A stretch of 28,956 bases of DNA, taken from positions 1-28,956 of the IMG/VR virus record IMGVR_UViG_3300007346_000151; one strand, written 5' to 3'. The DNA is from a virus. Position numbers and translations under genes: made by a program. The notes below the pieces were generated by a model. That model saw only the letters and a program-made list of their open reading frames with translations. It was not told the DNA's origin and did no database searches. Shown piece after piece: positions 1,333-26,339 of this stretch. Each line of letters starts with the position of its first letter. Position 1 is the first letter of the stretch.

Positions 1333-1420
1333 CCGGAAGTTCCCCAGAACCCGAAATTTATCTATTACATTTTTCTATCGGTATTCAGATTTCCATAGAA
1401 ACAAACAATCGAACTTCCGG
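1333..1420. repeat. 10-bp inverted repeat flanking an AT-rich island; possible origin or operator
   Basis: CCGGAAGTTC at 1333-1342 is repeated exactly in inverse orientation as GAACTTCCGG at 1411-1420. A direct repeat AAGTTCCCC (1325-1333 and 1337-1345) overlaps the left arm. Between the arms is the most AT-rich stretch of the gap. Paired protein sites around an easily melted stretch fit an origin or a divergent control region. This is inference; no known initiator box was recognised. Confidence 0.35.
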
Positions 1421-1431
1421 AACCAGCTCGT

Positions 1432-1863: not shown

Positions 1864-1887
1864 TGAACCCACCAAAAGGAGAAAACC

Positions 1888-2052
1888 ATGGAACGATTCA
1901 AGCCCATCTTCAAGCAAATGTATCTCAGCGAAGCCTTCGATATCTTTGAACGCTTTGTCGAGAACGTAATGGCACCGGACGCCGACGATGAAACGCGTGA
2001 GCGTATCGCGGCAGACCTCATCACCGCATTTCGCGAGGAGCTTCGGAAATGA
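1888..2052 (+). CDS. Small hypothetical early protein (54 aa)
   Basis: The ATG at 1888-1890 follows AAAAGGAGAAAACC, a strong ribosome site. The product starts MERFKPIFKQMYLSEAFDIF and ends FREELRK; it is mixed-charge, predicted helical, with an acidic APDADDETRERIAADL middle. No family is recognised. The stop overlaps the ATG of the next small gene (ATGA), which supports both as real. It is the first gene of the rightward early block. Confidence 0.65.
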   Translation: MERFKPIFKQMYLSEAFDIFERFVENVMAPDADDETRERIAADLITAFREELRK

Positions 2053-2138
2053 TCATCAGCATCATCTTGGTCTCGTTCGCTGGCATCATCACCGTACTGG
2101 CCTCCCGGCTGATCGGTAGAGATGTTCGTATCTGGTAA
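2049..2138 (+). CDS. Tiny membrane protein (29 aa)
   Basis: The ATG at 2049-2051 overlaps the previous stop by four bases. The product begins MIISIILVSFAGIITVLASR and ends LIGRDVRIW, so residues 2-18 form one hydrophobic membrane segment followed by a short positively charged tail. It could be a small inner-membrane effector, but nothing identifies a function. Support comes from the coupled start and coherent membrane-protein composition; at this length chance cannot be excluded. Confidence 0.5.
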   Translation: MIISIILVSFAGIITVLASRLIGRDVRIW

Positions 2139-2145
2139 TTCTGCT

Positions 2146-2161
2146 ACCCGCTTCGGCGGGT
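2146..2161 (+). promoter_or_regulatory. UUCG hairpin between early genes
   Basis: ACCCGC (2146-2151), loop TTCG, GCGGGT (2156-2161) is a perfect 6-bp stem closed by a very stable C-UUCG-G loop. It sits between the stop at 2138 and the ribosome site at 2191. No T-run follows. Confidence 0.6.
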
Positions 2162-2202
2162 TCAGAGATGCAGCCGCATCACATAACCACAGGAGAAACG
2201 AA

Positions 2203-2631
2203 ATGAACGCATACGAGAAAATGACCACTATGTTTTACGCTCTTTCAGCTCTGTTGAACCAGTGTTCAGCCATCACGGAAAACCATGTTCGCGAGGATGT
2301 TCCGGCGGCAGGTAAAGATGATGACAGCTACGAGCCGGGGAACTTCTACTACATCTCGAACGACGAGTATCTCGCCCTGAGCGAGACCTGTAACGTGGTC
2401 CGCATGCTTTGGAACGGCATCGAGACCAAGGATTTCGGTGACGAAAGCAAGACCATCATGAACGGCGTTCTGGACCTGTATCCACACAAATTCTGTGCAT
2501 CGTTCATCAGAGACGAATCGCTCAAGGATAATGACTTCGTGGTCGATAACTTCCGCAAGCTCCTGTACTCACTGCATCACGCAACGTATCGGGCAATGCG
2601 GCAGCACCCGGAAAACCCGTACGATTCATGA
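2203..2631 (+). CDS. Hypothetical early protein (142 aa)
   Basis: The start is set at the ATG at 2203-2205 behind CACAGGAGAAACGAA; the frame is open from 2122 but that part overlaps the upstream hairpin. The product begins MNAYEKMTTMFYALSALLNQ. It is acidic and mixed helical, with an EPGNFYYISNDEYLALSE segment and a C-terminal RKLLYSLHHATYRAMRQHPE helix. No recognised domain, signal peptide or metal-binding cluster. It sits alone between two hairpin elements with its own ribosome site, like its neighbours. Function unknown; early small phage proteins of this kind often act on host targets, but nothing here shows that. Confidence 0.72.
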   Translation: MNAYEKMTTMFYALSALLNQCSAITENHVREDVPAAGKDDDSYEPGNFYYISNDEYLALSETCNVVRMLWNGIETKDFGDESKTIMNGVLDLYPHKFCASFIRDESLKDNDFVVDNFRKLLYSLHHATYRAMRQHPENPYDS

Positions 2632-2637
2632 TCTCGT

Positions 2638-2690
2638 TGCCCTCTTCGGAGGGCATCTCCAAGCTACTGTCGAAGTGGCTTGAGAGATGC
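2638..2690 (+). promoter_or_regulatory. Double hairpin between early genes
   Basis: The first stem is TGCCCTC-TTCG-GAGGGCA (2638-2655), 7 bp with a UUCG loop. The second pairs GCATCTCCAAGCTACT (2653-2668) with AGTGGCTTGAGAGATGC (2674-2690), with one bulge and one G-U pair. The two share bases 2653-2655, so full forms compete slightly. The ribosome site of the next gene follows about 25 bases later. Confidence 0.6.
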
Positions 2691-2725
2691 CAACCCGGCA
2701 TCGTTTCACCATCAGGAGAACTGAA

Positions 2726-3205
2726 ATGACCAAGCGTATACTTTATGTCGGTACTGTGGCAGTGACTCGCATCCAAGAGAAATACCCGGACGATCACGTC
2801 TCTCGATACAAGAACAGCATCATAAGCGCGGAATACTGCACCCGCTTTGCCGCTGACTCGTGGGTCGAGGCCACGATGCACAGCCTGAAAGTCGCATTCG
2901 ACCCCACCCAGTGGCAGGACGGTATCGTCCGTGTCGACGCAAGGGTTGACGAGTACATCTTCGACCCGGAAGAACTGAACGAATACAAGCCTGACTTCGA
3001 GGTCGAGTTCGAGGTGACCATCACCAAGCGCATCACCACGACCGTCTCTGCGGAAACATGCGCGGAGCTGGGACATGCTGAAGACGAATACGGCGCGGAA
3101 GCCGCAGTCGAAGAGATGTTCGACAACGGAGACCTCGACGATGAAATCGAGGCAGAGTGCGAGTGGGATAGAGAGATATCCCTGCTGTCCGTCACCGAAG
3201 TTTAA
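2726..3205 (+). CDS. Acidic hypothetical early protein (159 aa)
   Basis: The start is the ATG at 2726-2728 behind ACCATCAGGAGAACTGAA. The product begins MTKRILYVGTVAVTRIQEKY. The N-terminal half is mixed; residues from about 80 on are strongly acidic, with EELNEYKPDFEVEFEVT, then ITTTVSAET and a GDLDDEIEAECEWDRE tail. The 'xVxFxVTxxxxxTVxAxx...A' pattern is common in small phage proteins of unknown function. The net charge is clearly negative, which is shared by DNA-mimic inhibitors, but charge alone proves nothing. No domain is recognised. Confidence 0.72.
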   Translation: MTKRILYVGTVAVTRIQEKYPDDHVSRYKNSIISAEYCTRFAADSWVEATMHSLKVAFDPTQWQDGIVRVDARVDEYIFDPEELNEYKPDFEVEFEVTITKRITTTVSAETCAELGHAEDEYGAEAAVEEMFDNGDLDDEIEAECEWDREISLLSVTEV

Positions 3206-3217
3206 TCGCCACCCACC

Positions 3218-3263
3218 GCCCCCGAAAGGGGGCAACCTCAAGGGGTCGGAACTCCGGCCCTTT
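3218..3263 (+). promoter_or_regulatory. Double hairpin between early genes
   Basis: GCCCCC-GAAA-GGGGGC (3218-3233) is a perfect 6-bp stem with a GNRA loop. It is followed by AAGGG(GT)CGG / CCG(G)CCCTT (3240-3263) around an AACT loop. The second stem resembles the one at about 1668-1688: both carry GGTCGG...GGAACTCC...GGCCC. Confidence 0.55.
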
Positions 3264-3297
3264 GATGTTGTCCCACTTTTACCATCAGGAGAATGAA

Positions 3298-3627
3298 ATG
3301 AATAGCGAATACGACTTCAATCCCGAACGCTGCAAGAAGGCAATCGAAGGTCTGAGCAAGATGGTTCACGACAACGGCTACACCGCCATCCCCACGAGGG
3401 ACAAGATGTTGCTCAAGGTCATCCTCGACGATCTGATCCTCGATATCGAGGCGCTACACCAACGCGCCGTCGAGCGCGACGAAGTTCTGAACAACATGAT
3501 GGATGCCATCAACCCGAACGAGGAGGGCTGGGGCTACTCCGCTGACGGTGAAGAACTCCGTGCCATCTATCACTGCTACACCGATGATGACGGCGCTCTT
3601 GTCGAAACGGAGCCGCTCAACCTTTGA
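3298..3627 (+). CDS. Hypothetical early protein (109 aa)
   Basis: The start is the ATG at 3298-3300 behind ACCATCAGGAGAATGAA, almost identical to the site of the preceding gene. The product begins MNSEYDFNPERCKKAIEGLS. It looks helical in its first two thirds (KMLLKVILDDLILDIEALHQ) with a short acidic tail GYSADGEELRAIYHCYTDDD. No known domain. It stands alone between hairpin elements, so it is probably expressed as its own cistron within the early transcript. Confidence 0.72.
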   Translation: MNSEYDFNPERCKKAIEGLSKMVHDNGYTAIPTRDKMLLKVILDDLILDIEALHQRAVERDEVLNNMMDAINPNEEGWGYSADGEELRAIYHCYTDDDGALVETEPLNL

Positions 3628-3663
3628 GCGCATTTCGGAACCTGTTTCGTGATAAGCTACTGC

Positions 3664-3719
3664 TATGGGTGGTGGAGGTCACCCATACCAGTGTCTTTTC
3701 TGAGGCACTTTTATATTGT
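3664..3719 (+). promoter_or_regulatory. Two hairpins, second followed by a T-rich run; possible partial terminator
   Basis: TATGGGTG (3664-3671) pairs perfectly with CACCCATA (3680-3687) around GTGGAGGT. AGTGTC (3690-3695) pairs with GGCACT (3704-3709), one G-U pair, followed by TTTATATTGTT. The T-rich tail makes the second a possible weak terminator or attenuator between 3627 and the gene at 3779. The TATATT at 3712-3717 has no matching -35. Confidence 0.45.
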
Positions 3720-3778
3720 TAAACAGCTATTTACCGCGTCTTTTCGACGCTTCATTTTACCATGAAAAGGAGACTGAA

Positions 3779-4531
3779 ATGGCAGCTCAAGTTCTACAAC
3801 TTTCACAGTACAAGTGCAAAGACGTGACCCGCAGCGAACTCGAAGGCGTGGTCCTTCCGCCAGTCACTGAAACGTATCAGCCGATACCTCACAGCTGGCT
3901 GCTCGATGAACTCAGCGACAAGCTGGCAGATATCGGGATCACCTTCGGCAAGCAGCACCACGGCTTGAGCCATGACGGCGCTCGTTACTTCGGCGTGATT
4001 CACCTCGAAGGATTCGCAGGCGTGGAAAGCGACTTGCAAATGCCCATGATGGGCGTTCGAAACTCGCTCGACAAACGCTTCGGCGCTCAGGTTTGCTTCG
4101 GCAACCAGATTATGGTTTGCGCTAACTTGTGTTTCTGGGGAACGTACATGCTTGGACGGAAACACACGCCGAACATCATGGTCGACTTGCCTGAAATGAT
4201 CAGCCGTACGCTCGAAGGCATTCCCGCCATGAACGAGTCGCAGAACAAGCGTTTCGACGCTTACCGCGAAGCTCGTTTGGGCCAGATCGCCGCTGACCAC
4301 ATGGTCGTCGAGATGCTGCGGCATGGCGCGGTCAACCCCGCCCGGATCGGCAAGGTCGTCGACGAGTGGGATCGCCCCACGTTTGATCACGGCAATGACC
4401 GCTCTGTCTGGCGCATGTTCAACGCCGCAACTCAGGCTCTCAAGGGTGTCAACGCCCACGAGATGCCTGCACGGACCATCGCGCTGACTCAGGTTTGCGA
4501 CGAAGCGACCGGGTTCAAGGTGGCGGCATGA
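3779..4531 (+). CDS. DUF932 family protein
   Basis: The start is the ATG at 3779-3781, just after AAAAGGAGACTGAA; 250 residues. The product begins MAAQVLQLSQYKCKDVTRSE. The segment at about residues 94-122, RNSLDKRF..QVCFGNQIMVCANLCFWG, with hydrophobic SHDGARYFGV before it, is the core signature of the DUF932 phage/plasmid family: a beta-rich core, an 'R-NS.D' motif and a Cys-containing strand. The family is common on phages and plasmids and its biochemical role is unknown; some members lie near DNA-transaction genes. Here it is followed by a coupled membrane peptide gene (ATGA overlap at 4528-4531). Assignment to the family is fairly sure; no function follows from it. Confidence 0.78.
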   Translation: MAAQVLQLSQYKCKDVTRSELEGVVLPPVTETYQPIPHSWLLDELSDKLADIGITFGKQHHGLSHDGARYFGVIHLEGFAGVESDLQMPMMGVRNSLDKRFGAQVCFGNQIMVCANLCFWGTYMLGRKHTPNIMVDLPEMISRTLEGIPAMNESQNKRFDAYREARLGQIAADHMVVEMLRHGAVNPARIGKVVDEWDRPTFDHGNDRSVWRMFNAATQALKGVNAHEMPARTIALTQVCDEATGFKVAA

Positions 4532-4647
4532 ATAAAGCCAAGCTCGTTCTGGAGACAGTGGCAGGAGCCTTCGGGTTCCTGCTGCTGATTGGAATCTGTG
4601 GTGCAGTCCTTTACGGGCTGGAGGAGATATTGAACGCATGGCTCTAG
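4528..4647 (+). CDS. Small membrane protein (39 aa)
   Basis: The ATG at 4528-4530 overlaps the DUF932 stop. The product begins MNKAKLVLETVAGAFGFLLL and continues IGICGAVLYGLEEILNAWL. Residues about 12-30 form one hydrophobic membrane helix rich in Gly and Leu, with a positively charged N-terminus. It is translationally coupled on both sides, since the next gene starts inside its last codons (4638). Function unknown; candidates include a membrane-targeting early effector. Confidence 0.55.
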   Translation: MNKAKLVLETVAGAFGFLLLIGICGAVLYGLEEILNAWL

Positions 4648-4859
4648 CATTCGCAGATCGACTGGCATGGGCGAAGGAGCAGTTCGAGGACAAGCTGGTG
4701 ATCCTTGAGGTCGCCGTCGAGAACTTCCGCAACTACGCCGATAACCGAAGACCCCATCAGGACGATGAGGATGACACACTGATGGCGGCAGCAGACTGCT
4801 TGCGGTTCGCTGAACGCCAGATACAGGCAGCACGAAATGTGCTGGAGGAGGGAAGCTGA
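4638..4859 (+). CDS. Hypothetical helical protein (73 aa)
   Basis: The ATG at 4638-4640 overlaps the upstream stop region by 10 bases; a GGAGGAG stretch lies about 11-14 bases upstream. The product begins MALAFADRLAWAKEQFEDKL and ends FAERQIQAARNVLEEGS. It looks entirely helical with alternating charges and an acidic HQDDEDD linker in the middle, so a two-helix hairpin is plausible. No domain is recognised. Near its end the gene contains a hairpin CAGCAC/GTGCTG (4828-4844). Confidence 0.65.
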   Translation: MALAFADRLAWAKEQFEDKLVILEVAVENFRNYADNRRPHQDDEDDTLMAAADCLRFAERQIQAARNVLEEGS

Positions 4860-4861
4860 CG

Positions 4862-4903
4862 CAATATCTTGTGCCTCCGGGCAACTAGAGGCACAACATA
4901 TTG
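4862..4903 (+). promoter_or_regulatory. Long 16-position hairpin, repeated element
   Basis: CAATATCTTGTGCCTC (4862-4877) pairs with GAGGCACAACATATTG (4888-4903): 15 of 16 positions pair, with a single C-C mismatch and a 10-base loop. The first 14 bases occur exactly in inverse orientation at 5244-5257. There is no T-run. The stem ends 28 bases before the ATG at 4931. It is the strongest stem in the early region and may bind a regulator or nuclease. Confidence 0.65.
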
Positions 4904-4930
4904 TGTTTCACTGACCAAAAAGGAGATGTA

Positions 4931-5077
4931 ATGACAGAAAACGAAGCGCACGATCTCGCTGACAAGATCGAGAGTACCGGGGTAGCGACCGCAAAAGTGG
5001 TTCGCATACTGCCGGAGGAAATTGATCCGCCCCGTCCGGGTGACAATGGATGGGATGTAGAGACCACCGTGAAATGA
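4931..5077 (+). CDS. Small hypothetical protein (48 aa)
   Basis: The ATG at 4931-4933 lies behind AAAAAGGAGATGTA. The product begins MTENEAHDLADKIESTGVAT and continues AKVVRILPEEIDPPRPGDNG, then WDVETTVK. The layout (short helix, beta strand, Pro-rich linker, Trp-containing end) is typical of compact phage proteins, but no family is recognised. It sits between the hairpin at 4862-4903 and a small GACAC/GTGTC stem at 5078-5092. Confidence 0.6.
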   Translation: MTENEAHDLADKIESTGVATAKVVRILPEEIDPPRPGDNGWDVETTVK

Positions 5078-5243
5078 GACACGCAATGTGTCGAGGAGGA
5101 ATGCCATGAGCCTGTATCGCAATGTGATCGGGCGTCAGGTTGGAAAGCATGCGCCATAGCATGCACCTGAAGCCAGCTACACCTCTTGCGTTGGGCGCTT
5201 ACAGTAACGGCGAAGCCCGTGAGGTCGATACGGGCATGGGAAA

Positions 5244-5298
5244 GGCACAAGATATTGTGTGCCGGAATGCAATCCCCCCCAAGATATGGGGGGGTTGC
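5244..5298 (+). repeat. Paired hairpins sharing an AAGATAT loop motif
   Basis: GGCACA (5244-5249) pairs with TGTGCC (5258-5263) around AGATATTG. Six bases later GCAA-T-CCCCCCC (5269-5280) pairs with GGGGGGG-TTGC (5288-5298) around AAGATAT. Bases 5244-5257 are the exact reverse complement of 4862-4875. The repeated CAAGATAT at or next to the loop in unrelated stems suggests a sequence-specific RNA or DNA ligand. Confidence 0.55.
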
Positions 5299-5372
5299 GA
5301 CACTATCAGGAGAAGTGCTAAAGTGTGCAGTAACGAGCTGACACGTGGGTAGTACGAGGTAAGTATCTCATC

Positions 5373-5531
5373 ATGATTCCCCCGTGTCTACCCGTCAGCG
5401 AGAAAATCGTTGGCAAGAGGCGCAAGCCCCCCATCAGATTTTCTACCCGGAATCCCGCTTCAAGACGGCGGCAAAACGGCAGATTGGTGTACCGGATTCA
5501 AAGTAAGCGCAAGCCTGTGAGCGCGGAGTAA
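5373..5531 (+). CDS. Doubtful small basic protein (52 aa)
   Basis: An ATG-to-TAA frame begins MIPPCLPVSEKIVGKRRKPP and ends IQSKRKPVSAE. It is very rich in Arg, Lys, Pro and Ser. A GAGGTAAG sequence lies 13 bases upstream, farther than usual. Its start sits inside the GCTGAC..GGGTAG stem. It may be a small nucleic-acid-binding protein, or an accident of a structured non-coding region; the latter seems somewhat more likely. Confidence 0.25.
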   Translation: MIPPCLPVSEKIVGKRRKPPIRFSTRNPASRRRQNGRLVYRIQSKRKPVSAE

Positions 5532-5688
5532 CAAAAAGCAGGTATCCGAACCGGGGTGGCCTCCCTCATCAGGCTGGAGCGACTGGTCCACGACACGGAC
5601 AGCCGACAGCCGGGGAACGCAAAAGAAGGAGTACACCTCCGTCTTAATTGACCACTATGGCCTTCTCACCAGTATCCAAGGAGCAAGA

Positions 5689-5901
5689 ATGGACAAACGA
5701 GAACGAGAACTTCGGAAGCTATTGCGTCGACTGGATTGCAGGTTGGCCGGATATACCGGGTCGACCCACCGCAAGATAGTCTGCAACAAAACAGGTCGCG
5801 AAATCTCGACCTCTCTCTCGCCAAAGAACATGGATATGTGGCTCAAGCAAGTCGAGCGCCACGTGATCCGGATGCGGAAGGGGGTCTACGATGCTTCGTG
5901 A
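5689..5901 (+). CDS. HicA-like small protein (70 aa)
   Basis: The start is the ATG at 5689-5691 behind CCAAGGAGCAAGA. The product begins MDKRERELRKLLRRLDCRLA, then GYTGSTHRKIVCNKTGREIS, then a C-terminal WLKQVERHVIRM helix. The order helix, 'G-x-THRKIV' strand, GREI strand, 'SP...' and helix resembles the double-stranded-RNA-binding-like fold of HicA proteins, where a His on the first strand cleaves mRNA; His27 would be the candidate. No HicB antitoxin gene follows; instead the helicase start overlaps its last codons (5891-5901). Stand-alone members of this fold are frequent in phages, so a toxin role is not implied. Family assignment moderate. Confidence 0.55.
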   Translation: MDKRERELRKLLRRLDCRLAGYTGSTHRKIVCNKTGREISTSLSPKNMDMWLKQVERHVIRMRKGVYDAS

Positions 5902-7339
5902 CTATCAGCAGACCGCAATCAGCAAGACGTACGCATCCCTTCGCGAGAATGTTTCAACGCTACTCCAAATGCCGACAGGCAGCGGCAAAACCCATGTCGC
6001 AATGGACATCATCAAGCACGGCCTGAAACATGACCGCAAAATCACTTTCGCAGTAGACCGCATCACGCTGCTGGATCAAACCCTCGACAAGTTCTACGAG
6101 GCTGGCATCCCCTTCGGCGTGGTACAGGGCGACCACCCCATGTGCAACTACGCGGCCCCGGTCCAGATCGCCAGCTTGCAGACGCTCCAGCGTCGAGGCA
6201 GGAGGGCGTGGCCAGACCACCACCTGTGCATCATCGACGAGGCGCATACCAACTACAGCGTCATTGGCGAGATGATCGACACGTGGAACGCACGGAAGTA
6301 TATCGGGCTGACTGCGACCCCGTTCACCCGTGGCCTTGGCCTGATCTGGAATGATCTGGTTGTCGCCACAACGACCAAGGAGCTGATCGAACGTGGCTAC
6401 CTTGCTGAGTACGAAGCCTTTGGCCCGTCAACCCCGGACCTGACCAACATCAGGCGCTCCGGCGCTGACTTCAGCCTGACGGCTCTCGAGGAGCGAATGA
6501 ACGTCCTGACGGGCGATATCGTAGCGCACTACAAGTCGATAGCTGACGGCAAAAAAGGATTGTATTTCACGCCCACCGTGGCGTACGCACAGTTCCTTGC
6601 TGACGAGTTCATGGCGCAAGGCGTTATGGCTGACCACGTGAGCGGCCACGACAGCGACGAACGCCGCAAGGATGTACTCAACCGTTACCGCAAGGGTGAT
6701 ATCCAAGTGGTGACGAACTGTGAGGTTCTCACGAAGGGTTTCGACATGCCCGACATCGAGGTCGGTGGCCTGTGCCGCCCGACTCGCAGTCTGTCACTGC
6801 ATATCCAAATGCTGGGCCGATTCCTGCGGCGACACGGCGACACGGTGAAGCTGATCCTCGACCACTCCGGCAATATCGAGCGGCTGGGATTCCCTGACGA
6901 CCCGTTGCCTCAACGGCTGGACATGGGCGAGGAAGGCACCAACTCCGATACCCGCCAGCCGGACGAGCCGCAGCCGTGGAACTGTCCGAAGTGCCACTCG
7001 CTGGTCCCGCCACGTACACCGCAGTGTACAGTCTGTGGCCACATGGCTCGACGCCGACACGAGGTCGAGGTCCAGAATGGGGTGCTGCAACGACTGAGTA
7101 ATCCGAACGTCTCTGAGCAGCAGCAAAAGCAGGAAATCTACTCGCAGCTGATCTGGTACGCACACGAGCATGGCTACAGCGAAGGCTGGGCCGCGCATAA
7201 GTACAAGAAGCTGCACGGTGTATTCCCACGCAAGCTGCACAAGACACCCGAAGTTCCATCTCAGCAACTGCTGGGCTGGATCACCAACCAAAATATCGCA
7301 TACGCCAAACGAAAGGAGGGCCACCGTGATCACTACTGA
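5891..7339 (+). CDS. SF2 DEAH-box helicase with C-terminal zinc finger
   Basis: A 482-residue superfamily 2 helicase. Visible motifs: Q-motif-like LRDYQQ at residues 2-7, Walker A PTGSGKT at 28-34, DEAH at 116-119, TATPF at 141-145, TKGFDMPDIE near 281-290 and QMLGRFLRR (motif VI) at 306-314. A four-cysteine zinc knuckle (Cys365, Cys368, Cys379, Cys382) follows the helicase core, and a helical tail closes it. This resembles the type III restriction/UvsW-like helicases of small phages, which remodel replication or recombination intermediates using ATP. It is the only replication enzyme in the window; no polymerase or primase is present. The start overlaps the HicA-like gene; its end overlaps the next gene by 14 bases. 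Confidence 0.92.
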   Translation: MLRDYQQTAISKTYASLRENVSTLLQMPTGSGKTHVAMDIIKHGLKHDRKITFAVDRITLLDQTLDKFYEAGIPFGVVQGDHPMCNYAAPVQIASLQTLQRRGRRAWPDHHLCIIDEAHTNYSVIGEMIDTWNARKYIGLTATPFTRGLGLIWNDLVVATTTKELIERGYLAEYEAFGPSTPDLTNIRRSGADFSLTALEERMNVLTGDIVAHYKSIADGKKGLYFTPTVAYAQFLADEFMAQGVMADHVSGHDSDERRKDVLNRYRKGDIQVVTNCEVLTKGFDMPDIEVGGLCRPTRSLSLHIQMLGRFLRRHGDTVKLILDHSGNIERLGFPDDPLPQRLDMGEEGTNSDTRQPDEPQPWNCPKCHSLVPPRTPQCTVCGHMARRRHEVEVQNGVLQRLSNPNVSEQQQKQEIYSQLIWYAHEHGYSEGWAAHKYKKLHGVFPRKLHKTPEVPSQQLLGWITNQNIAYAKRKEGHRDHY

Positions 7340-7487
7340 ACGAGAATGGAAATGGGAAATGTCAGACTTCCGCCGCTGGGCCGAACAGGCTGGTCACTTC
7401 CAGATTCCAATGCTCATGGAAAACTACAGGAGATTTACTGATGCACGACGAGAACAGAAACGACCTGCAAAACGAGCAGGTAGCTGA
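7326..7487 (+). CDS. Small hypothetical protein with GTG start (53 aa)
   Basis: A GTG at 7326-7328 directly follows AAAGGAGGGCCACC, the best ribosome site in the operon. The product reads (M)ITTEREWKWEMSDFRRWAEQ and ends EQKRPAKRAGS. It is Trp- and Arg-rich at the start and basic at the end, probably helical. Both ends overlap neighbours (helicase, and the gene starting at 7441). No family is recognised; small nucleic-acid-binding or helicase-associated roles are possible but unproved. Confidence 0.65.
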   Translation: MITTEREWKWEMSDFRRWAEQAGHFQIPMLMENYRRFTDARREQKRPAKRAGS

Positions 7488-7944
7488 GTTCCAATACGGG
7501 CGACACCTCGCAGCTTTGGGGGTGACGCAGGTTTCGACGAACATTACACCGAAGCGCCGAAAGGACCACTACGACTTCGAGATATACGAGGAAGGAAAGT
7601 GGACAGGCGTTGCTGAAGTACGCGCCGTGAACTACACCCACGAACAGGTGGAGGAGTGGGGTGGGTTCATGCTCGAAGAGGGCAAACTGAAGGCGCTGAA
7701 GGATCAGTTCTGTTTCCGTTCCGCAGTGACGGGCAAGCCCATGTGGAGCAAGCAGATCATATTCCTCTTTCGCTGCGTACCGGATGACACGCTCTGGTGT
7801 ATTCACATGCGCCAGATCGTCGATGGCTGGGCTGACTGGCCGGAGGTTTCTCCGGAGAAGTTCAAAACCAATCATGGTGCGGGGCAACATCCCACGAAAC
7901 GCGGCAAGAGAATCCCGTTCAACCTGATGGAGCGAGTCGAATGA
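7441..7944 (+). CDS. Hypothetical protein, possibly nuclease fold (167 aa)
   Basis: The start is the ATG at 7441-7443 behind ACAGGAGATTTACTG, overlapping the upstream gene. The product begins MHDENRNDLQNEQVAEFQYG. The segment HYDFEIYEEGKWTGVAEVRA, at about residues 43-62, has the layout of a PD-(D/E)XK nuclease core: an acidic residue on one strand, then 'E-x-[K/R]' on the next (here E-V-R), after an N-terminal helix with acidic residues. The usual PD is not seen and the Lys is replaced by Arg, so it may be an inactive or diverged member, or something else. The placement among VRR-NUC, NinB and YbcO genes fits a DNA-processing role. Confidence 0.6.
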   Translation: MHDENRNDLQNEQVAEFQYGRHLAALGVTQVSTNITPKRRKDHYDFEIYEEGKWTGVAEVRAVNYTHEQVEEWGGFMLEEGKLKALKDQFCFRSAVTGKPMWSKQIIFLFRCVPDDTLWCIHMRQIVDGWADWPEVSPEKFKTNHGAGQHPTKRGKRIPFNLMERVE

Positions 7945-8168
7945 GATACCTGACAACAATTCTTGTTCTGCTGCTGGCCGGGTGTACAGACCCGCTCTAC
8001 GTGGAGACCAACGAGCCTGCTGTGCTACGGGATTTTAAACGAGCTTGCATGGCCAAGAAAGGCCAGTACATCACCTTGCAGGAGCGTCGACGAGTGACCT
8101 CGCGTGAAGCAAGATCGTGGAGAATGGAGTGCAGGTACTTTGAACTGCTGGAGGATGACGATGAGTGA
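7941..8168 (+). CDS. Early lipoprotein (75 aa)
   Basis: The ATG at 7941-7943 overlaps the upstream stop (ATGA). The product begins MRYLTTILVLLLAGCTDPLY: a short hydrophobic signal with lipobox LAGC, so Cys15 should be lipidated after signal peptidase II cleavage. Asp at +2 relative to Cys is Thr-Asp here, not the classic Cys-Asp inner-membrane retention signal. The mature part is about 60 residues, with two Cys (36 and 63 approx.) and an acidic ELLEDDDE tail. A lipoprotein inside an early DNA-metabolism operon rather than in the lysis cassette recalls superinfection-exclusion lipoproteins such as Cor or Llp. This role is inference only. Confidence 0.75.
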   Translation: MRYLTTILVLLLAGCTDPLYVETNEPAVLRDFKRACMAKKGQYITLQERRRVTSREARSWRMECRYFELLEDDDE

Positions 8169-8442
8169 ATCACAATTTCAGCGATACTGGAATCGCATTG
8201 ATAACAGCCCCGGTGCTTTGGATCGTGCAACGCCTGAACAGCTTGCAGAAGTAAAGCGAATGGTGAAGGCAGCGTTTCATGCAGGGCATGGAATGTACCA
8301 AAAGCGCATCGCTGAACTGGAAACGTCAACCATTCATGCAAAGTATGTCAGCGCAATGGATCGCATCAGCGAACTTGAAGCAAATATCTTTTGGTACTCG
8401 ATGGGGATTTCTAAAGGAAAGCTGGAGGATGACGAGGAATGA
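8161..8442 (+). CDS. Hypothetical helical protein (93 aa)
   Basis: The start is the ATG at 8161-8163, eight bases inside the previous gene, behind GGAGGATGACG. The product begins MSESQFQRYWNRIDNSPGAL. It is mostly helical: a LAEVKRMVKAAFHAGHGMYQ helix, then KRIAELE..YVSAMDRISELEANIFW, which has the heptad look of a short coiled coil. No domain recognised. The stop overlaps the NinB-like start by four bases. Confidence 0.68.
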   Translation: MSESQFQRYWNRIDNSPGALDRATPEQLAEVKRMVKAAFHAGHGMYQKRIAELETSTIHAKYVSAMDRISELEANIFWYSMGISKGKLEDDEE

Positions 8443-8843
8443 TTTACAGACATATCATCCCGTCTGGTGATCTGGCGGCAGAACATCGCCGCCTCATCAA
8501 AGCAGACATTGACGAGCTGCCATCAGACAAACCCTTGCTCGTGCAGATCAAGCTGTACAAATCCAGACGAAGTCTGGAGCAGAACAGCTACCTTCATGCC
8601 GTACCGCTGAAGCTGATCTGTGATGAGACCGGATACGAGATCGAGGACATGAAAGCGTATCTGATGGGCGAGGCTTTTGGCTGGGTCGAGTACGAGATCA
8701 TGGGCAACACGCGGAAGAAACCACGGCTGACTACTTCGCAGCTGAACAAGGAGCAAATGTCGTGGTTCTTCGAGTGGCTGGAACAGTGGGCGGCTCAAAC
8801 GCTTGACCTGATTATCCCCAAACCAAACGAGGTGATCGAATGA
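8439..8843 (+). CDS. NinB/Orf-like recombination mediator
   Basis: The ATG at 8439-8441 overlaps the upstream stop; 134 residues, near the usual length of the family. After an N-terminal beta region it has KLYKSRRSLEQNSYLHAVPL at about residues 39-58, matching the 'R(S/T)xxQNxxxxA' core of lambda Orf (NinB), and later TTSQLNKEQMSWFFEWLEQW with an 'LIIPKPNE' end. Lambda Orf binds single-stranded DNA and helps annealing or recombinase loading in place of RecFOR. Here it fits the Sak-exonuclease-SSB set downstream. The family match is recalled, with the QN motif as the main support. Confidence 0.72.
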   Translation: MIYRHIIPSGDLAAEHRRLIKADIDELPSDKPLLVQIKLYKSRRSLEQNSYLHAVPLKLICDETGYEIEDMKAYLMGEAFGWVEYEIMGNTRKKPRLTTSQLNKEQMSWFFEWLEQWAAQTLDLIIPKPNEVIE

Positions 8844-9031
8844 AGAAAATTATTCAGATAGCAGCAGCAACTGACGGGTCTCTCTACGGGCTGGACAACG
8901 AAGGGGTTCTGTATAAGCTGGATTCACAAAGCGTTACCCACAGCCTTGACGAAGACGGCGACCCTTACCTGCCCGATACGTATGTAGAGACTGCATGGGT
9001 CGAAATCAAAAGAGGACTGACGAATGAATAA
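8840..9031 (+). CDS. Small hypothetical protein (63 aa)
   Basis: The ATG at 8840-8842 overlaps the NinB-like stop (ATGA). The product begins MKKIIQIAAATDGSLYGLDN and continues EGVLYKLDSQ, later TAWVEIKRGL. The 'DGSLYGLDNEGVLYKL' unit resembles one blade repeat of a beta-propeller, yet the protein is far too short for a propeller. Similar short proteins are widespread in phages and uncharacterised. Confidence 0.68.
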   Translation: MKKIIQIAAATDGSLYGLDNEGVLYKLDSQSVTHSLDEDGDPYLPDTYVETAWVEIKRGLTNE

Positions 9032-9284
9032 AAAGGAGCAGGCGCTGATCGAGTTCGCCAAGTTCTGCCTGTGGCAAGGCGGTGACTGGTGCGGCGGGAT
9101 CGACGGCGAGGAGATGCAGGACAAAGCGGAAGAGCTTGGTTTGATCGAGCCGTACACCGCAACGGAACCCTGCTGTGATTACTGTATGTGTGCCGAAATA
9201 GACGCCGACTTCCCTGTGACGTGCTACCGATACACTGATCTGATGAAGGACACGTCGACGATTCAGGGGCATGGAACGGGCTGA
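9024..9284 (+). CDS. Hypothetical Cys-rich protein (86 aa)
   Basis: The ATG at 9024-9026 overlaps the preceding gene by eight bases and follows AGAGGACTGACGA. The product begins MNKKEQALIEFAKFCLWQGG. Cysteines at about 15 and 23, plus a cluster EPCCDYCMCAEIDADFPVTC (about residues 48-67), could bind a metal ion. The N-terminal helix then 'GEEMQDKAEELGLIEPY' resembles a winged-helix-like stretch found in small phage proteins. No named family. The stop shares a base with the next ATG (TGATG). Confidence 0.68.
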   Translation: MNKKEQALIEFAKFCLWQGGDWCGGIDGEEMQDKAEELGLIEPYTATEPCCDYCMCAEIDADFPVTCYRYTDLMKDTSTIQGHGTG

Positions 9285-9583
9285 TGGCAGCACCAAGATA
9301 CGTCGCAAATCGCGACGGGAATCACAAGGAAATCACGCAAGCCCTTGAAAAGATTGGATGTAGCGTTTACGATGCAAGTGCCGTTGGTGGCTCCTTCCCT
9401 GATTTGGTTGTGGGAAAACACGGAATCACCATGCTGATCGAGGTCAAGACCCCAAAGGGTCGTTTGAAGGAGGGTCAGGAAAAATGGCACAGCGAATGGA
9501 AAGGACACACGTGTATTGTCCGTTCACCGATGGAAGCGGTGGAGGCCGTACAGCATCATGTCAAAGCTCACCAGAGCCGCTAG
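9284..9583 (+). CDS. VRR-NUC domain nuclease
   Basis: A 99-residue stand-alone VRR-NUC protein. The core is visible: an N-terminal helix with E16, FPDLVVG at about 38-44 (Asp40), and LIEVKTPKG at about 51-59, giving the D...E-x-K catalytic set (Asp40, Glu53, Lys55). A C-terminal helix with SPMEAVEAVQ follows. VRR-NUC proteins cut branched DNA; phage members act as Holliday-junction or flap endonucleases. It sits between small operon genes and YbcO-like, matching the junction-resolvase slot of many phage nin-type regions. The ATG overlaps the upstream stop by one base. Confidence 0.85.
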   Translation: MAAPRYVANRDGNHKEITQALEKIGCSVYDASAVGGSFPDLVVGKHGITMLIEVKTPKGRLKEGQEKWHSEWKGHTCIVRSPMEAVEAVQHHVKAHQSR

Positions 9584-9848
9584 ACTGCGGTCGTGCAGTT
9601 TGCGCCTGCCGGGTTGCCAGAATGCGCGAGAGACCGTCATTCTCGCCCACGCTCCGTCCGTCGAAAGCGGTCGGGGCTACAAGAGTCCTGATTGGTGGTC
9701 GGCTTTTGCCTGTTCCCACTGTCACGACATTGTGGACGGACGCAGACCTGCTCCGTGTGGCAATGATGTAATCCTCGAACGCTGGTTCAAGGGCGTTTTC
9801 GAGACTCAGTTCACCTTCTTTAACGAAGGGCTGCTTCGAGAGGAGTAG
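9558..9848 (+). CDS. YbcO-like (DUF1364) putative nuclease
   Basis: The start chosen is the ATG at 9558-9560 because the family begins MSKxTxAAR at this point; it overlaps the VRR-NUC gene by 26 bases in another frame, with GGAGG about 12 bases upstream. The 96 residues show MSKLTRAARLRSCSLRLPGC, ILAHAP (His31), ACSHCHDIVDGR (about 51-62) and a final long helix. The paired Cys/His set (Cys13, Cys20, His31, Cys52, Cys55, His56) forms the HNH-like zinc centre of DUF1364 proteins, found in lambdoid nin regions. Activity on DNA is presumed. Confidence 0.82.
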   Translation: MSKLTRAARLRSCSLRLPGCQNARETVILAHAPSVESGRGYKSPDWWSAFACSHCHDIVDGRRPAPCGNDVILERWFKGVFETQFTFFNEGLLREE

Positions 9849-9857
9849 CCCCTTTTC

Positions 9858-9886
9858 TTGCATGCCGGAATGTATTCCGGTACAAT
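9858..9886 (+). promoter_or_regulatory. Sigma70-type promoter with palindromic operator
   Basis: TTGCAT (9858-9863) and TACAAT (9881-9886) are separated by exactly 17 bases. The spacer contains the palindrome CCGGAATGTATTCCGG (9865-9880), two 7-bp arms around GT. Transcription should start near 9893 and read the annealing-protein gene at 9913. A dimeric repressor bound in the spacer would block polymerase. This is the clearest promoter in the window. Confidence 0.78.
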
Positions 9887-9912
9887 GTAGTTGTTCTTGT
9901 GGAGGAACCTTT

Positions 9913-10554
9913 ATGAACGATGAAACCAAGGTCGCAGCGTCCTTTGAATCGCTGGTATGGGACACCCTGTCCCGCATCGAGGTCAGTGATCACATTGACC
10001 ATCTTCCGAAAACCAAGAAGCGCCCCGCCGTTGCATACCTTCCGTGGCACAAGGCGTGGATGCTGACCAAGCGCAAGTTCCCGGCGTCGACGTACAGCCA
10101 CCGCGCTGACATCACGCACAGTGACGGCTCAGTCGAGGTCGAGGTGGATGTTGTCATCGCCAACACGCACGGCGGCGACACGTTCTTCACCAACGCACGT
10201 CTGGCCGTGATGGACCAGTGGTTCAACGCTATCCCGAATCCAGATGCGCGGTCAGTCAATGACGCTCGTCAGCGGTGCCTCGTGAAAGCACTGGCCTTTG
10301 CGGGTCTGGGCCTGAACCTGTGGGCTGACGGCTCCGTGATCCCGGTCGGCAAGCTGAGCGACCCGATCTCACCCAAGCAGTTCGACGAGCTGAACACCCT
10401 GATCACGGAAACGGAGACGGATATCTCCAAGTTCCTTGAGTGGTGCGAAGTCGAGTCACTGGACCAGCTGCCGTTCGAGCGGTTTGGCTCAGCGTACAAC
10501 CTGCTCCGGGCCAAGAAGCTGCGGGTCGAGGCGGCGAAGGAGGCAGGCAAATGA
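9913..10554 (+). CDS. Sak-type single-strand annealing protein (DUF1071)
   Basis: The start is the ATG at 9913-9915 behind GTGGAGGAACCTTT; 213 residues. The DUF1071 pattern is visible: ESLVWDTLSRIEVSDH at about 12-27, AYLPWHKAWMLTKRKFPAST at 41-60, a beta-rich VEVDVVI strand, LAVMDQWFNAIPNPDARSVN at about 97-116, and RCLVKALAFAGLGLNLWADG at about 121-140. The family belongs to the Rad52-like superfamily of phage annealing proteins, which pair complementary single strands. The C-terminal part (SKFLEW...LDQLPFERF) is a typical helical tail. It is the first gene behind the promoter at 9858 and is coupled to the exonuclease gene. Confidence 0.85.
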   Translation: MNDETKVAASFESLVWDTLSRIEVSDHIDHLPKTKKRPAVAYLPWHKAWMLTKRKFPASTYSHRADITHSDGSVEVEVDVVIANTHGGDTFFTNARLAVMDQWFNAIPNPDARSVNDARQRCLVKALAFAGLGLNLWADGSVIPVGKLSDPISPKQFDELNTLITETETDISKFLEWCEVESLDQLPFERFGSAYNLLRAKKLRVEAAKEAGK

Positions 10555-11195
10555 TCATCCACGATATCGAGCAATACTCCGATGAATGGTGGTCTCTGCG
10601 TCAGGGCCGCTTCACGGCCTCACAAGCCGCTAAACTGCTGACCCCCACAGGGAAGCTGTCTACGCAATTTCGTGGCGAACTGGGCCGAATGGTGGCCGAA
10701 CAGCTGGGGTTACAGGAGCCAGAGAAGAATGAGTTCTCCACCGAATGGATGGACCGTGGCTCCGATCTGGAAAACGAAGCAAGGGCATGGCTGGCCGTGG
10801 TGCTGGACATGCCCATCCGGAAAGTGGGAATGGTGACGGACGGCGAGATCATCGCCGCCTCACCTGACGCGCTCATCGAGCAGACCCATACAGCACCGGA
10901 TGGCTACACCAGTGAGTATGTCCCGGTCGAGATCAAGGTGCCGAAGCCGTCGACCCATATCCAGTGGCTGCTGGACGGTGGACTGCCGAAGGAACACAAG
11001 GCACAGGTCCACTTCCAAATGGTGGTGACGCAATCCCCGTACGCTTACTTCATGTCGTACCACCCGGAGCTTGAGCCTTTGATCGTCCGGGTCGAAGCCG
11101 ACGACTACACGGACGCCATGGCCCATGCCATCGAAGAACTCAAGAACGAGTACATGAAGGCGTTCACTGCGATAAAAGGTGGGAGGTCAGTATGA
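10551..11195 (+). CDS. YqaJ/lambda-Exo family 5'-3' exonuclease
   Basis: The ATG at 10551-10553 overlaps the annealing-protein stop (ATGA); 214 residues, the usual length. Motifs: SDEWWSLRQGRFTASQAAKL at 10-29, DRGSDLENEARAW at about 68-80, ASPDALI at about 103-109 (Asp106), VEIKVPKPSTHIQWLLDGG at about 126-144 (Glu127, Lys129) and HKAQVHFQM (Gln152). These match lambda exonuclease catalytic residues for Mg-dependent resection of double-stranded ends. With the annealing protein and SSB it forms a complete two-component recombination system that likely repairs or concatenates phage DNA. Confidence 0.92.
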   Translation: MIIHDIEQYSDEWWSLRQGRFTASQAAKLLTPTGKLSTQFRGELGRMVAEQLGLQEPEKNEFSTEWMDRGSDLENEARAWLAVVLDMPIRKVGMVTDGEIIAASPDALIEQTHTAPDGYTSEYVPVEIKVPKPSTHIQWLLDGGLPKEHKAQVHFQMVVTQSPYAYFMSYHPELEPLIVRVEADDYTDAMAHAIEELKNEYMKAFTAIKGGRSV

Positions 11196-11383
11196 TCAAG
11201 GTCAAATGTTCCTGCGGCAAGACCAACCGCATCTTCGTACAGCCGTGGCAGCGCAAAGCAATACGCGCTTTCAAGGCGAAATATCCATGGGTGGCCAACG
11301 ACGATATCGCCACCCTGTTCAACCTGTCCACCACCCGGATCAGCGAGATCATCCGGGCGGACATCGAAAAGAGAGGTGCTTAA
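11192..11383 (+). CDS. Small HTH protein (63 aa)
   Basis: The ATG at 11192-11194 overlaps the exonuclease stop and follows GGGAGGTCAGT. The product begins MIKVKCSCGKTNRIFVQPWQ. A Cys pair CSCGK (Cys6, Cys8) opens it; residues about 33-56, with DDIATLFNLSTTRISEIIRA, look like a helix-turn-helix of the sigma-4/resolvase-like kind. It may be a regulator that binds DNA, for instance at the palindrome in the operon's promoter, but nothing proves that link. Only two Cys are present, so a complete zinc finger would need a partner. Confidence 0.65.
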   Translation: MIKVKCSCGKTNRIFVQPWQRKAIRAFKAKYPWVANDDIATLFNLSTTRISEIIRADIEKRGA

Positions 11384-11658
11384 TGGCAAAGGTAATTGGT
11401 GATGTAGTCTTCCCCAGCGGGAAGTACATCAAAGACGGTGAAGAGAAAACCCGCTGGATTCGCTGCGGAACTCTTTTGGAAACAGACAAGGGCATGCGTA
11501 TCAAGCTCGACTGCATCCCGGTCGTGACTGATCCATCCGGCATGTGGTTCTCCGTGTTCGAGAAGGAAGAAGCGCCACGGCCTGTTCAGCAGGCTCCACA
11601 GCCCACCGCTGCGGCCCCGGCTGTTCAACCCGGCATTGATGGAGACATGCCGTTCTAG
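11383..11658 (+). CDS. Small single-stranded DNA-binding protein-like
   Basis: The ATG at 11383-11385 shares a base with the upstream stop. The 91 residues begin MAKVIGDVVFPSGKYIKDGE and run through alternating strands (TRWIRCGTLLET, MRIKLDCIPV, MWFSVFEK) that fit a minimal OB fold. A flexible Pro/Ala/Gln linker at about 65-84 follows and ends GIDGDMPF. That acidic tip ending in Pro-Phe is the hallmark of SSB proteins, which use it to recruit partners. It follows the annealing protein and exonuclease, as SSBs often do. A strong terminator lies immediately after. Confidence 0.78.
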   Translation: MAKVIGDVVFPSGKYIKDGEEKTRWIRCGTLLETDKGMRIKLDCIPVVTDPSGMWFSVFEKEEAPRPVQQAPQPTAAAPAVQPGIDGDMPF

Positions 11659-11669
11659 AATCCCCTGTT

Positions 11670-11695
11670 GCCCTCCCTTCGGGGAGGGCTTTTTT
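11670..11695 (+). terminator. Intrinsic terminator of the recombination operon
   Basis: GCCCTCCC (11670-11677), loop TTCG, GGGAGGGC (11682-11689), then six T. The stem is a perfect 8 bp, starting 11 bases after the SSB-like stop. Confidence 0.92.
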
Positions 11696-11702
11696 GTATG
11701 TG

Positions 11703-11762
11703 GGGGGTCTCCGTTCATCATTAGCCATCGCTGAATGGACTCACGGTACATTGGAGACCCCC
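11703..11762 (+). promoter_or_regulatory. 10-bp inverted repeat in a gene leader
   Basis: GGGGGTCTCC (11703-11712) and GGAGACCCCC (11753-11762) are perfect inverse copies, with 40 bases between them that carry a weaker CATT/AATG pairing. It lies after the terminator and before the ATG at 11798, so it could be a leader RNA structure or a pair of protein sites. No promoter is evident inside. Confidence 0.55.
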
Positions 11763-11797
11763 GTTGTAGCGAACGATTATGCCACAAGGAAACCGAA

Positions 11798-12076
11798 ATG
11801 AATAAACTGAAACACCGCCGATTGCTGGTACGCAATTCCCTGACTGAACTGGAAGCAGGATACCTTCAGATGAAGTCCGTGGGCTTCGAGGTCGACCCTG
11901 ATTACAAGGTACAAACATCAGTGCAGCAGGCGCTCATGGATATCCACAACGAGTCAAAGCAAGTAATATGCGGAATCATGATTGAGCTGCCACAGGGCAT
12001 AGAGGTCGCATTCGATGAAAACGGAAAACCCTTCCTCCGGGAAATACCCCCCAGTGAATCCAGCGAACAGGCATAA
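11798..12076 (+). CDS. Hypothetical protein (92 aa)
   Basis: The start is the ATG at 11798-11800 behind CACAAGGAAACCGAA, a site resembling those of the early genes; the frame is open from 11735 but that part overlaps the inverted repeat. The product begins MNKLKHRRLLVRNSLTELEA. It is basic at the start, then GYLQMKSVGFEVDPDYKVQT and an acidic C-terminus with AFDENGKPFLREIPP. The mixed alpha/beta pattern is coherent, but no family is recognised. It is separated from the recombination operon by a terminator and so may have its own regulation. Confidence 0.66.
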   Translation: MNKLKHRRLLVRNSLTELEAGYLQMKSVGFEVDPDYKVQTSVQQALMDIHNESKQVICGIMIELPQGIEVAFDENGKPFLREIPPSESSEQA

Positions 12077-13162: not shown

Positions 13163-13610
13163 GTAGTTTCTCCACCCTCTCCGCTTGCCTGTCTAATTCT
13201 TTTTCTATCCAGCGTTGTGCTTCTCTTGCTACCTCTACGTCCGCATGTTGGTCTGTTACATTGTCGGCAAGCATCGTCAGAACACCGTCTGTTGCCGTCC
13301 TGTATCGGAGATCAGCTTCGTTCATCCGGGTCAGTTCGTCCTTGATCGGTGAGATCGTCAAGGTGATAAACGTGGCTAGAACACCAATAGCGGATACCGC
13401 GATAGCCAGCCCAGCCGCTATAATTGGTCCCTGTGGCTTGTTAATCCGCGAGAACATCCCTCTTTGGTTTTCAACCAATGTCCTCACGTCCGCGCTTAGC
13501 GAGTGGACGATCTTTGTCAGATCACCAATCTGAGAACGCTGTGCTTCTTGTTCCTTCTCGTAATGTTCTGTCCATTCTCTGAAGGACATTCGTTCTTCTG
13601 GCTGTGTCAT
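13143..13610 (-). CDS. Membrane-anchored coiled-coil protein, possible holin or spanin
   Basis: 155 residues; the ATG at 13608-13610 overlaps the stop of the repeat protein (ATGA). The N-terminal 50 residues are charged and helical (EHYEKEQEAQRSQIGDLTKI), ending with VENQRGMFSRINKP. Then one hydrophobic segment, about 61-88, GPIIAAGLAIAVSAIGVLAT and onward, and a long charged helix to the C-terminus (REAQRWIEKELDRQAERVEK). This is a common phage family of unknown function with the same 'LVENQRGMFSRINKP' segment. Next to the M15 peptidase it could be a holin or the inner-membrane part of a spanin. Neither is proven. Confidence 0.68.
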   Translation of the reverse strand: MTQPEERMSFREWTEHYEKEQEAQRSQIGDLTKIVHSLSADVRTLVENQRGMFSRINKPQGPIIAAGLAIAVSAIGVLATFITLTISPIKDELTRMNEADLRYRTATDGVLTMLADNVTDQHADVEVAREAQRWIEKELDRQAERVEKLHEAGVL

Positions 13611-15685
13611 GTAACTATATACACCCTTCTGCTCGATGGAGCATTATACGAAAATGCTGCCTCTCCTGCGGCCACATTGTATGTCGCCGTTTGAGCAGTC
13701 ATCTGGAGGAGGCGCTCTAGATCAGCGGAGACTCCATTGACGTTATACGCCGCAGTCTCCGCCCCCATTGAAATATCGCGCTGGAAAGCAACCGTGCCGC
13801 CCGTGACGCTGAACGCCGCTGGCAGCATGGGCAAGTTCGAGGTCGCAGGGAAGCTGGCTGTTCCGGGCGCTACGACAGTATCATTCGTCTCAGCAGGCAA
13901 GCGCCTCTGGGCAAGCAACAGTGGCCGCTGCCACGGCTCCAAGATATAGACGACAAACTGAGTTGTGACCGCCGGAAGCGTATACGTGCGAACGATGGTC
14001 GTATCGACGGAGTCGACGGTGTATGTCGTCGTGTCGACGGCCAGCCTGCTGTCCTTGCTGAAGGCAACCGTACCGGCAGCGACCGTGAAGTTGGCGGTGG
14101 CGGCTGGCATGGCCGCGTCATTGCCGAAGGAGGCATCAACACCTGTAACCGCATACGTCTGGGGATCAGCGTCCAGCTGGAGCTGACGGTTCAGGGCGTT
14201 GGCTACCCCTGTAACAGAATACGATGCGCTGTCAGCTGGCAGTGTGTACAGGCGGTCGAGGCTGTTGGCTACGCCGGAGACCGTGTACGTCTGGGTCGTG
14301 GCTGGCATCACCACGGACTTCTTCAGGGCAATGTCGACGCCAGTGACTTGGTACGTGGTCGTGTTGGCGGGGAATGCGCCTGTTACCTGAAGCCCGGTTT
14401 CGCCCCCGGTAACACCATACGTCTGGACCTGAGCCGGGAGACGGTATGTGTTCTTGAATGCGTTGTCGACGGAGCTGACGGCGTACGTCTGCGTGGCCGC
14501 ATCCATTTGGTAGCTGACGAGAAGGTCCGTGTCGACGGTGTTGACCGCATACGTCTGCGTGTCGGCACCCATCGTGACCTGTGTCGCGGCATGGAAATGG
14601 TAGCCATCTGCCGTGTGCTGGCCAGCCGTGTTCTCGTCGACTTTGAAGTGGTCAGCGTCCGCCGTCCACGGCGTGTATATCGACGGTGTTCCTCCACTGA
14701 CCGTGAACGTGGCCGCGTTGGCAGGCATGCTGTATGCCTTGTTGAGCGCATTCGCCACGCCAGAGACGGTGAACGCCGCCGTCTGGGCCGTCATCTCGAA
14801 GGTCGCGCTTACGAACTCATACGCGATATCGACGCCAGTAACCGCGTATGTCTGCGTCACCGCAGGCATCACGAACGTCTTGTTCAGCGCGTTGCCGACA
14901 CTCGCAACAGAATACGTTTGGGTTTCAGCTTCGAGGTGTCGGGCAACCTCAAACGCATTCGCCACGCCACTGACAGTGTACGCACCCGTCTCCGCCTGCA
15001 TGGTGTACGTCTTGCTGAACCCCGTGTCGACGGTGGTTACACTGTACGTTTGGGTCGAGGCATCGAGGTGATAGTCGATGCTGAAGGCATTGGCCACACC
15101 ACTGACGGCATACGTCTGGGTGGTGGCGTCCATGCTGTAGTTGGTCAGCTCTTGGACGGTAACCTGCGGATAATCTGCCGTCGCATCATTATCCGGGGCG
15201 GCATTATTAAGGGTGCAGCGGAACTGGATCGTATCTCCGTTGTCGACGCCCGTGCTTGAAATCTGGAGACAGCATTCAACTTCGGAGTAATCGGTCGTGC
15301 CAGCAATAATTTCGGCGCTGGTAAGTGCCTCGCCATCCTCCGTCATGCAAGAGCCGCCGTCGAACGTACCTGTACCCAGCTGCTGGGTGGTATTGGCTCC
15401 TTCAACGAAGTTGCTAGACGCGCTGGCTATTACGACAGAGCCAACCTGTGTAATATTTGTCCACGTATTCGTTCCTTCTACATGGCGGTATTGGAAATGA
15501 GCGTCGAAGTTCTTGAGTGAACCACCAGCCGTTTCTTGCAGCCGGAAGCGCAACCGGAAGTTCTCATCAACAGGTTGTGTCCAGTCGACGTTAGCTGCTG
15601 CTTTCCATGTTGCTGCTATTTCTGATCCGTTGTCGTTGCGACCCCTGAAGGCAATCAGGTTGACAACTGGGGTTGTCATACCCAT
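13607..15685 (-). CDS. Virion protein with about twenty 22-residue repeats (692 aa)
   Basis: The product begins MGMTTPVVNLIAFRGRNDNG. Residues 1-182 look like one beta-rich domain with conserved Trp/Arg (VDWTQPVDENFRLRFRLQ). From about 183 to 682 it consists of repeats of some 22 residues of the form 'YxMxAxTQTYAVSGVANAFxx', for example YSMDATTQTYAVSGVANAF and YTLPADSASYSVTGVANAL. Two insertions interrupt the array: about 30 residues with TPWTADADHFKVDENTAGQH, and one with ILEPWQRPLLLAQRR. The C-terminus ends SRRVYIVT. Similar repeats occur in late genes of other phages and gene-transfer agents. The alternating pattern suggests an elongated beta structure: a fibre, tail or capsid surface protein. 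It sits after the tail-fibre genes and before lysis. Confidence 0.75.
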   Translation of the reverse strand: MGMTTPVVNLIAFRGRNDNGSEIAATWKAAANVDWTQPVDENFRLRFRLQETAGGSLKNFDAHFQYRHVEGTNTWTNITQVGSVVIASASSNFVEGANTTQQLGTGTFDGGSCMTEDGEALTSAEIIAGTTDYSEVECCLQISSTGVDNGDTIQFRCTLNNAAPDNDATADYPQVTVQELTNYSMDATTQTYAVSGVANAFSIDYHLDASTQTYSVTTVDTGFSKTYTMQAETGAYTVSGVANAFEVARHLEAETQTYSVASVGNALNKTFVMPAVTQTYAVTGVDIAYEFVSATFEMTAQTAAFTVSGVANALNKAYSMPANAATFTVSGGTPSIYTPWTADADHFKVDENTAGQHTADGYHFHAATQVTMGADTQTYAVNTVDTDLLVSYQMDAATQTYAVSSVDNAFKNTYRLPAQVQTYGVTGGETGLQVTGAFPANTTTYQVTGVDIALKKSVVMPATTQTYTVSGVANSLDRLYTLPADSASYSVTGVANALNRQLQLDADPQTYAVTGVDASFGNDAAMPAATANFTVAAGTVAFSKDSRLAVDTTTYTVDSVDTTIVRTYTLPAVTTQFVVYILEPWQRPLLLAQRRLPAETNDTVVAPGTASFPATSNLPMLPAAFSVTGGTVAFQRDISMGAETAAYNVNGVSADLERLLQMTAQTATYNVAAGEAAFSYNAPSSRRVYIVT
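13640..15139 (-). repeat. Degenerate 66-bp tandem repeat array inside a virion gene
   Basis: Roughly twenty units of about 66 bases encode the 22-residue protein repeats. On the plus strand the unit shows as recurring words such as GCATACGTCTG and GTGTACGTC..CGTC. Units differ considerably at base level, with two longer insertions, so it is an old array, not a fresh duplication. Confidence 0.8.
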
Positions 15686-19174: not shown

Positions 19175-19185
19175 GTCTCACCTCC

Positions 19186-19638: not shown

Positions 19639-19641
19639 TCA

Positions 19642-22368: not shown

Positions 22369-22378
22369 TTTTCAGTCC

Positions 22379-23902: not shown

Positions 23903-23905
23903 TCT

Positions 23906-24592: not shown

Positions 24593-24600
24593 GGTCTACC

Positions 24601-25260: not shown

Positions 25261-25280
25261 ACATTCCTCCACAGTGGGTC

Positions 25281-25335: not shown

Positions 25336-25345
25336 GTGGTACTGA

Positions 25346-26314: not shown

Positions 26315-26339
26315 TGGTTTGATACCTCATCAAAAAAAT

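Follow-up and report, generated by a model that had tools for sequence, protein, structure and literature searches.

How is transcription of the annealase-exonuclease operon of an uncultured phage controlled? The question is raised by a 64-bp gap in a linear virus record of 28,956 bases (the window). The gap runs from the end of a YbcO-type nuclease gene to the Shine-Dalgarno sequence and ATG of an operon for a Sak-type annealing protein and a YqaJ/RecE-like exonuclease. Within it, positions 9858–9886 read TTGCAT-GCCGGAATGTATTCCGG-TACAAT, that is, a -35-like and a -10-like box on either side of a 17-bp spacer (9864–9880), which consists of one G followed by the 16-mer CCGGAATGTATTCCGG (9865–9880), a perfect palindrome with 7-bp arms and a 2-bp centre (7+2+7). 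A preliminary description of this DNA had placed a 16-bp palindrome across a 17-base spacer, and direct reading bears this out. The likeliest single reading is that the spacer of a phage promoter would here contain an operator, a view favoured by the position of the palindrome, by the gene order and by an analogue in the Bradyrhizobium phage ppBjS10J-1. Switches in which an operator sits between the boxes of a promoter are ordinary, and no general idea is changed by this one. Would a promoter be expected here? Is the palindrome more than a chance symmetry? Which protein could read it?

The gap and its gene context

The features around the gap are as follows.

9558–9848, + strand: YbcO-type nuclease gene, upstream of the gap
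9828–9851, + strand: terminator-like hairpin overlapping the end of the YbcO gene (10 pairs, 6 of them G-C, loop of 4; T-rich tail CTTTTCTTGC)
9858–9863, + strand: -35-like box TTGCAT (3 of 6 positions as in TTGACA)
9865–9880, no strand: proposed operator palindrome CCGGAATGTATTCCGG (direct reading and palindrome scan)
9881–9886, + strand: -10-like box TACAAT (5 of 6 positions as in TATAAT)
9901–9905, + strand: Shine-Dalgarno sequence GGAGG (direct reading)
9913–10554, + strand: Sak-type single-strand annealing protein (Pfam PF06378, E 5.6e-21; PHROG 8492)
10551–11195, + strand: YqaJ/RecE-like exonuclease (Pfam PF09588, E 1.5e-15; PHROG 149)
11192–11383, + strand: 63-residue protein, possible helix-turn-helix (no Pfam family; in PHROG one unnamed family, weakly matched at E 0.0015)
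11383–11658, + strand: small protein with the last residues DGDMPF (in PHROG one unnamed family, weakly matched)
11670–11689, + strand: intrinsic terminator closing the operon, GCCCTCCCTTCGGGGAGGGC TTTTTT (terminator scan)

To judge from its residues, the tail of the last protein may be SSB-like. Terminator-like sites are not in excess across the region (10 found, 9.1 expected).

Several other features of the window may be recorded here. Strong RNA hairpins stand shortly before the Shine-Dalgarno sequence in many leaders, at 1800–5400 and 11655–11800; most have no U-run after them, and several lead into ACCAnnAGGAGA...GAAATG leaders that resemble one another (repeat families D11 and D19). Two small minus-strand genes lie between the arms of a 26-nt inverted repeat (321–346 and 830–855), which are 88% complementary. 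A minus-strand protein of 692 residues (13607–15685) is made of imperfect repeats, and the distances between copies are multiples of 33 nt (family D1).

The promoter-like boxes

A sigma-70 promoter has the form TTGACA, 16–18 bp, TATAAT. Of the boxes earlier called near-consensus, the -10-like box agrees at 5/6 positions and the 17-bp spacing is as described, but the -35-like box is not near consensus (3/6); because it is weak, the expression "ideal promoter" is an overstatement. The pair was missed by a scan for 9 of 12 consensus positions, and it ranked third among all positions of the record when scored by weight matrix. Promoter-like sites at such a score number 3 in the record as against 5.9 ± 2.1 in shuffled sequence, so that the score by itself is no proof of a promoter. 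The best score in the 64-nt gap is reached by 2.0% of shuffles of the gap, and it is notable only locally. A promoter is nevertheless expected about here on account of the arrangement of signals, since a terminator-like hairpin precedes the site, a Shine-Dalgarno sequence and ATG follow it, and a terminator closes the operon. From the position of the putative -10 box, transcription would start near 9893.

Relatives and copies of the site

Relatives of the locus were sought through its neighbouring proteins. Sak, the helicase and the DUF932-like protein gave none; YqaJ led to four distant loci (31–36% identity), at all of which a Sak family match is absent. The capsid led to a 99.9% identical contig (IMGVR_UViG_3300007344_000377), which overlaps 18723–28956, ends at 18723 of the record, short of the palindrome site, and adds 9 kb of the same phage past the record end (positions 1–9100 of the contig). 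No relative found by these searches covers the palindrome. In two Manatee Spring phages with Sak relatives, the upstream stretches examined hold no palindrome with arms of at least 6.

The preliminary description also proposed a genome-wide count of the palindrome and pointed to a recurring half-site. The count is one: no second copy occurs in the record and the 9 kb added to it, 38 kb in all. The 10-mer TGCCGGAATG does recur exactly at 5260–5269, outside any palindrome (CCGGAATGCAATCCCC), but for 88% of random segments of like size at least one 10-mer is also present elsewhere in the record. The copy is real but uninformative, and the half-site at 5260 is rejected as a signal.

The full core CCGGAATNNATTCCGG followed by TANNNT was searched for in viral and genome collections. 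Among 55 genome stretches with this sequence, mostly in long open frames, not one has a TTG-type -35 box at 17-bp spacing, and the three viral contig stretches all lie within long open frames; no comparable promoter was seen in these collections. A looser search of the viral collection, for the core GGAATNNATTCC inside a TTG...TANNNT promoter, returned 25 stretches that represent about a dozen distinct sequences. Two of these resemble real promoters, L185 and a group consisting of L193, L194, L196–L198, L200 and L202, and L185 alone among the matches adjoins a visible repressor switch. In the second group (L193:6004–6032 and the corresponding sites), a common intergenic TTGACA-N17-TATAAG with GGAATAAATTCC in its spacer precedes a small membrane-protein-like ORF.

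The search for a possible regulator

It had been stated that no repressor gene is obvious, and indeed none was recognised in the record by searches that included Pfam and PHROG. The ORFs in the added 9 kb look structural from their listing, and the 38 kb of known sequence contain no recognisable terminase or immunity region. Therefore, several kilobases of the phage genome, possibly including the repressor, seem to be missing from the known sequence.

The preliminary description put forward the protein at 11192 as an autoregulator with a helix-turn-helix. The ORF (11192–11383) does lie in the same operon; the regulatory role is not borne out, as the protein has neither a recognisable DNA-binding family (Pfam; PHROG as listed above) nor a solved relative, nor any relative in known phages. 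A single-sequence structural model of low confidence (mean pLDDT 67.5) predicts helices at residues 36–44 and 48–62, an arrangement that would allow a helix-turn-helix; no match at E < 0.001 came from a fold search with this model.

Operator, RNA structure or chance

In the mechanism that we propose, a phage repressor would bind the palindrome as a dimer between the -35 and -10 boxes and, once bound, would block RNA polymerase. The repressor would most likely be an immunity repressor or a Cro-like protein, with its gene outside the sequence available, and the recombination genes would thereby be held off together with the immunity switch. To this reading, a sigma-70-type promoter of the Sak-YqaJ operon with a dimer-binding operator in its spacer and a repressor gene beyond the sequenced stretch, we give about an even chance. 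Against an operator count the single copy, the failure to find a repressor gene, the weak -35 box, the want of any excess of promoter scores in the record, the lack of a relative covering the site and the frequency of palindromes of such size. If the reading is true, the annealase-exonuclease operon of the phage is governed by a single spacer operator, probably alongside the immunity switch, in a layout that fits that of ppBjS10J-1, and the site provides a probe for the missing repressor.

Could the palindrome act as RNA instead? In a read-through mRNA from YbcO to Sak it might form a hairpin that serves stability or processing or insulates the Sak ribosome-binding site. As RNA it is lengthened by a G-U pair next to its stem and by a distal UGCAU/AUGUA stem, and strong hairpins just before the Shine-Dalgarno sequence are found in many leaders at 1800–5400 (z -3.2 to -4.5 in six of those tested). 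The 64-nt gap, however, folds only weakly better than its shuffles (z -1.8), a terminator-like hairpin lies just upstream of the palindrome, and transcripts from the adjacent promoter would begin beyond the palindrome and not include it; we regard this role as rather unlikely. A similar standing is given to chance, that is, to a symmetric spacer of a promoter, or of nothing, that is read by no protein. With arms of at least 7 and a gap of 0–10, 26 palindromes occur in the 28,956-nt record, where shuffles hold 19.3 ± 4.1; palindromes of such size are common in the record and a single one is unremarkable. There is one copy only, and no relative found covers the site. Shuffling produces such a palindrome in 0.5% of cases for the 17-nt spacer and in 1.7% for the 64-nt gap, odds that favour an operator but were judged after the fact. 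What speaks against chance is that the palindrome is in exact register with the spacer, in an intergenic gap that is due to hold a promoter.

Two further readings keep the operator and change its reader. The 63-residue protein might bind the palindrome and repress its own operon, being encoded there and having two model helices that could form a helix-turn-helix; with no family, solved relative, fold assignment or known-phage relative, and with a low-confidence model, this is very improbable. That a host regulator uses the palindrome, as the preliminary description suggested, is equally hard to credit: the full-core search lends it no support, with a matching promoter in none of the 55 genome stretches nor in the viral contigs, and the palindrome fits no LexA, NrdR or other consensus compared with it. 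It is improbable, too, that a host regulator reads the site, or that the small protein does so as a phage regulator of a new kind, in such a way that phage recombination answers to a signal other than an immunity switch.

LexA boxes have the form CTGT-N8-ACAG, GTTC-N7-GTTC or CGAAC-N4-GTTCG, and such a box can occupy the promoter spacer of a recombination gene. The present site may share its position before a recombination gene with the box of LexA-controlled promoters, but the palindrome fits none of these three consensus sites and is rejected as a LexA box. It is likewise rejected as an NrdR box, being absent from the ACACAATATATTGTGT matches with at most 3 mismatches. Such matches do occur elsewhere in the window, at 4859–4874, 4891–4906 and 5245–5260 (3, 2 and 2 mismatches; 0.04 expected). 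The first two lie 32 bp apart, and the spacing reported for pairs of NrdR boxes is about 31–32 bp (PMC2892513). No ribonucleotide reductase gene was seen despite these sites, and as RNA the first two make up a long hairpin, so that RNA structure is a rival to an NrdR pair.

Comparison with known systems

Phage immunity operators overlap early promoters, as at OR/PR of lambda, and as a rule they come in repeated copies, also at the repressor/cro switch. The CI operators of TP901-1 and phi13 are of the same kind, with three sites in phi13 (PMC8516035). Together with its promoter-like boxes, the palindrome resembles these operators in being a dyad-symmetric site that overlaps a putative phage promoter and is fit for a dimeric repressor; it differs from them in that lambda, TP901-1 and phi13 have several sites and a known CI, whereas here there is one site and no repressor gene was found. 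MerR-family promoters also carry a palindrome within the spacer, but MerR-type action is disfavoured because it requires a spacer of 19–20 bp (PMC7722741) and the present one has 17 bp.

Two phages provide analogues. In the prophage switch of L185 (IMGVR_UViG_2563366810_000008), GGAATTTATTCC takes up the spacer of a strong promoter, TTGACA/TATAGT, which has a divergent gene for an XRE-like repressor on one side and a cro-like gene on the other, as these proteins were named from their sequence. The likeness lies in the GGAAT-N2-ATTCC core that fills a promoter spacer; L185 differs in its 5-bp arms, its consensus -35 box, its divergent XRE-like/cro-like pair and its other gene context.

In ppBjS10J-1 (OP596615.1), whose capsid and YqaJ are 39% and 33.5% identical to those of the present phage, sites resembling CCTACCGTTTTGGTAGG are found in the interval that separates two divergent HTH genes and also ahead of the recombination block, where the last of them stands between TTGCAA and TAGGTT, which are 16 bp apart. 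The palindrome copies are at 3004–3020, 3070–3086 and 3505–3521, with 0 expected in shuffles. Thus, in both phages a palindrome stands before the recombination block between -35-like and -10-like boxes. The present palindrome has a sequence other than CCTACCGTTTTGGTAGG and occurs once, not several times, and the HTH pair between which ppBjS10J-1 also has copies was not found in this phage. Without placing the present site among them, ppBjS10J-1 and L185 show by analogy that the proposed layout occurs in phages.
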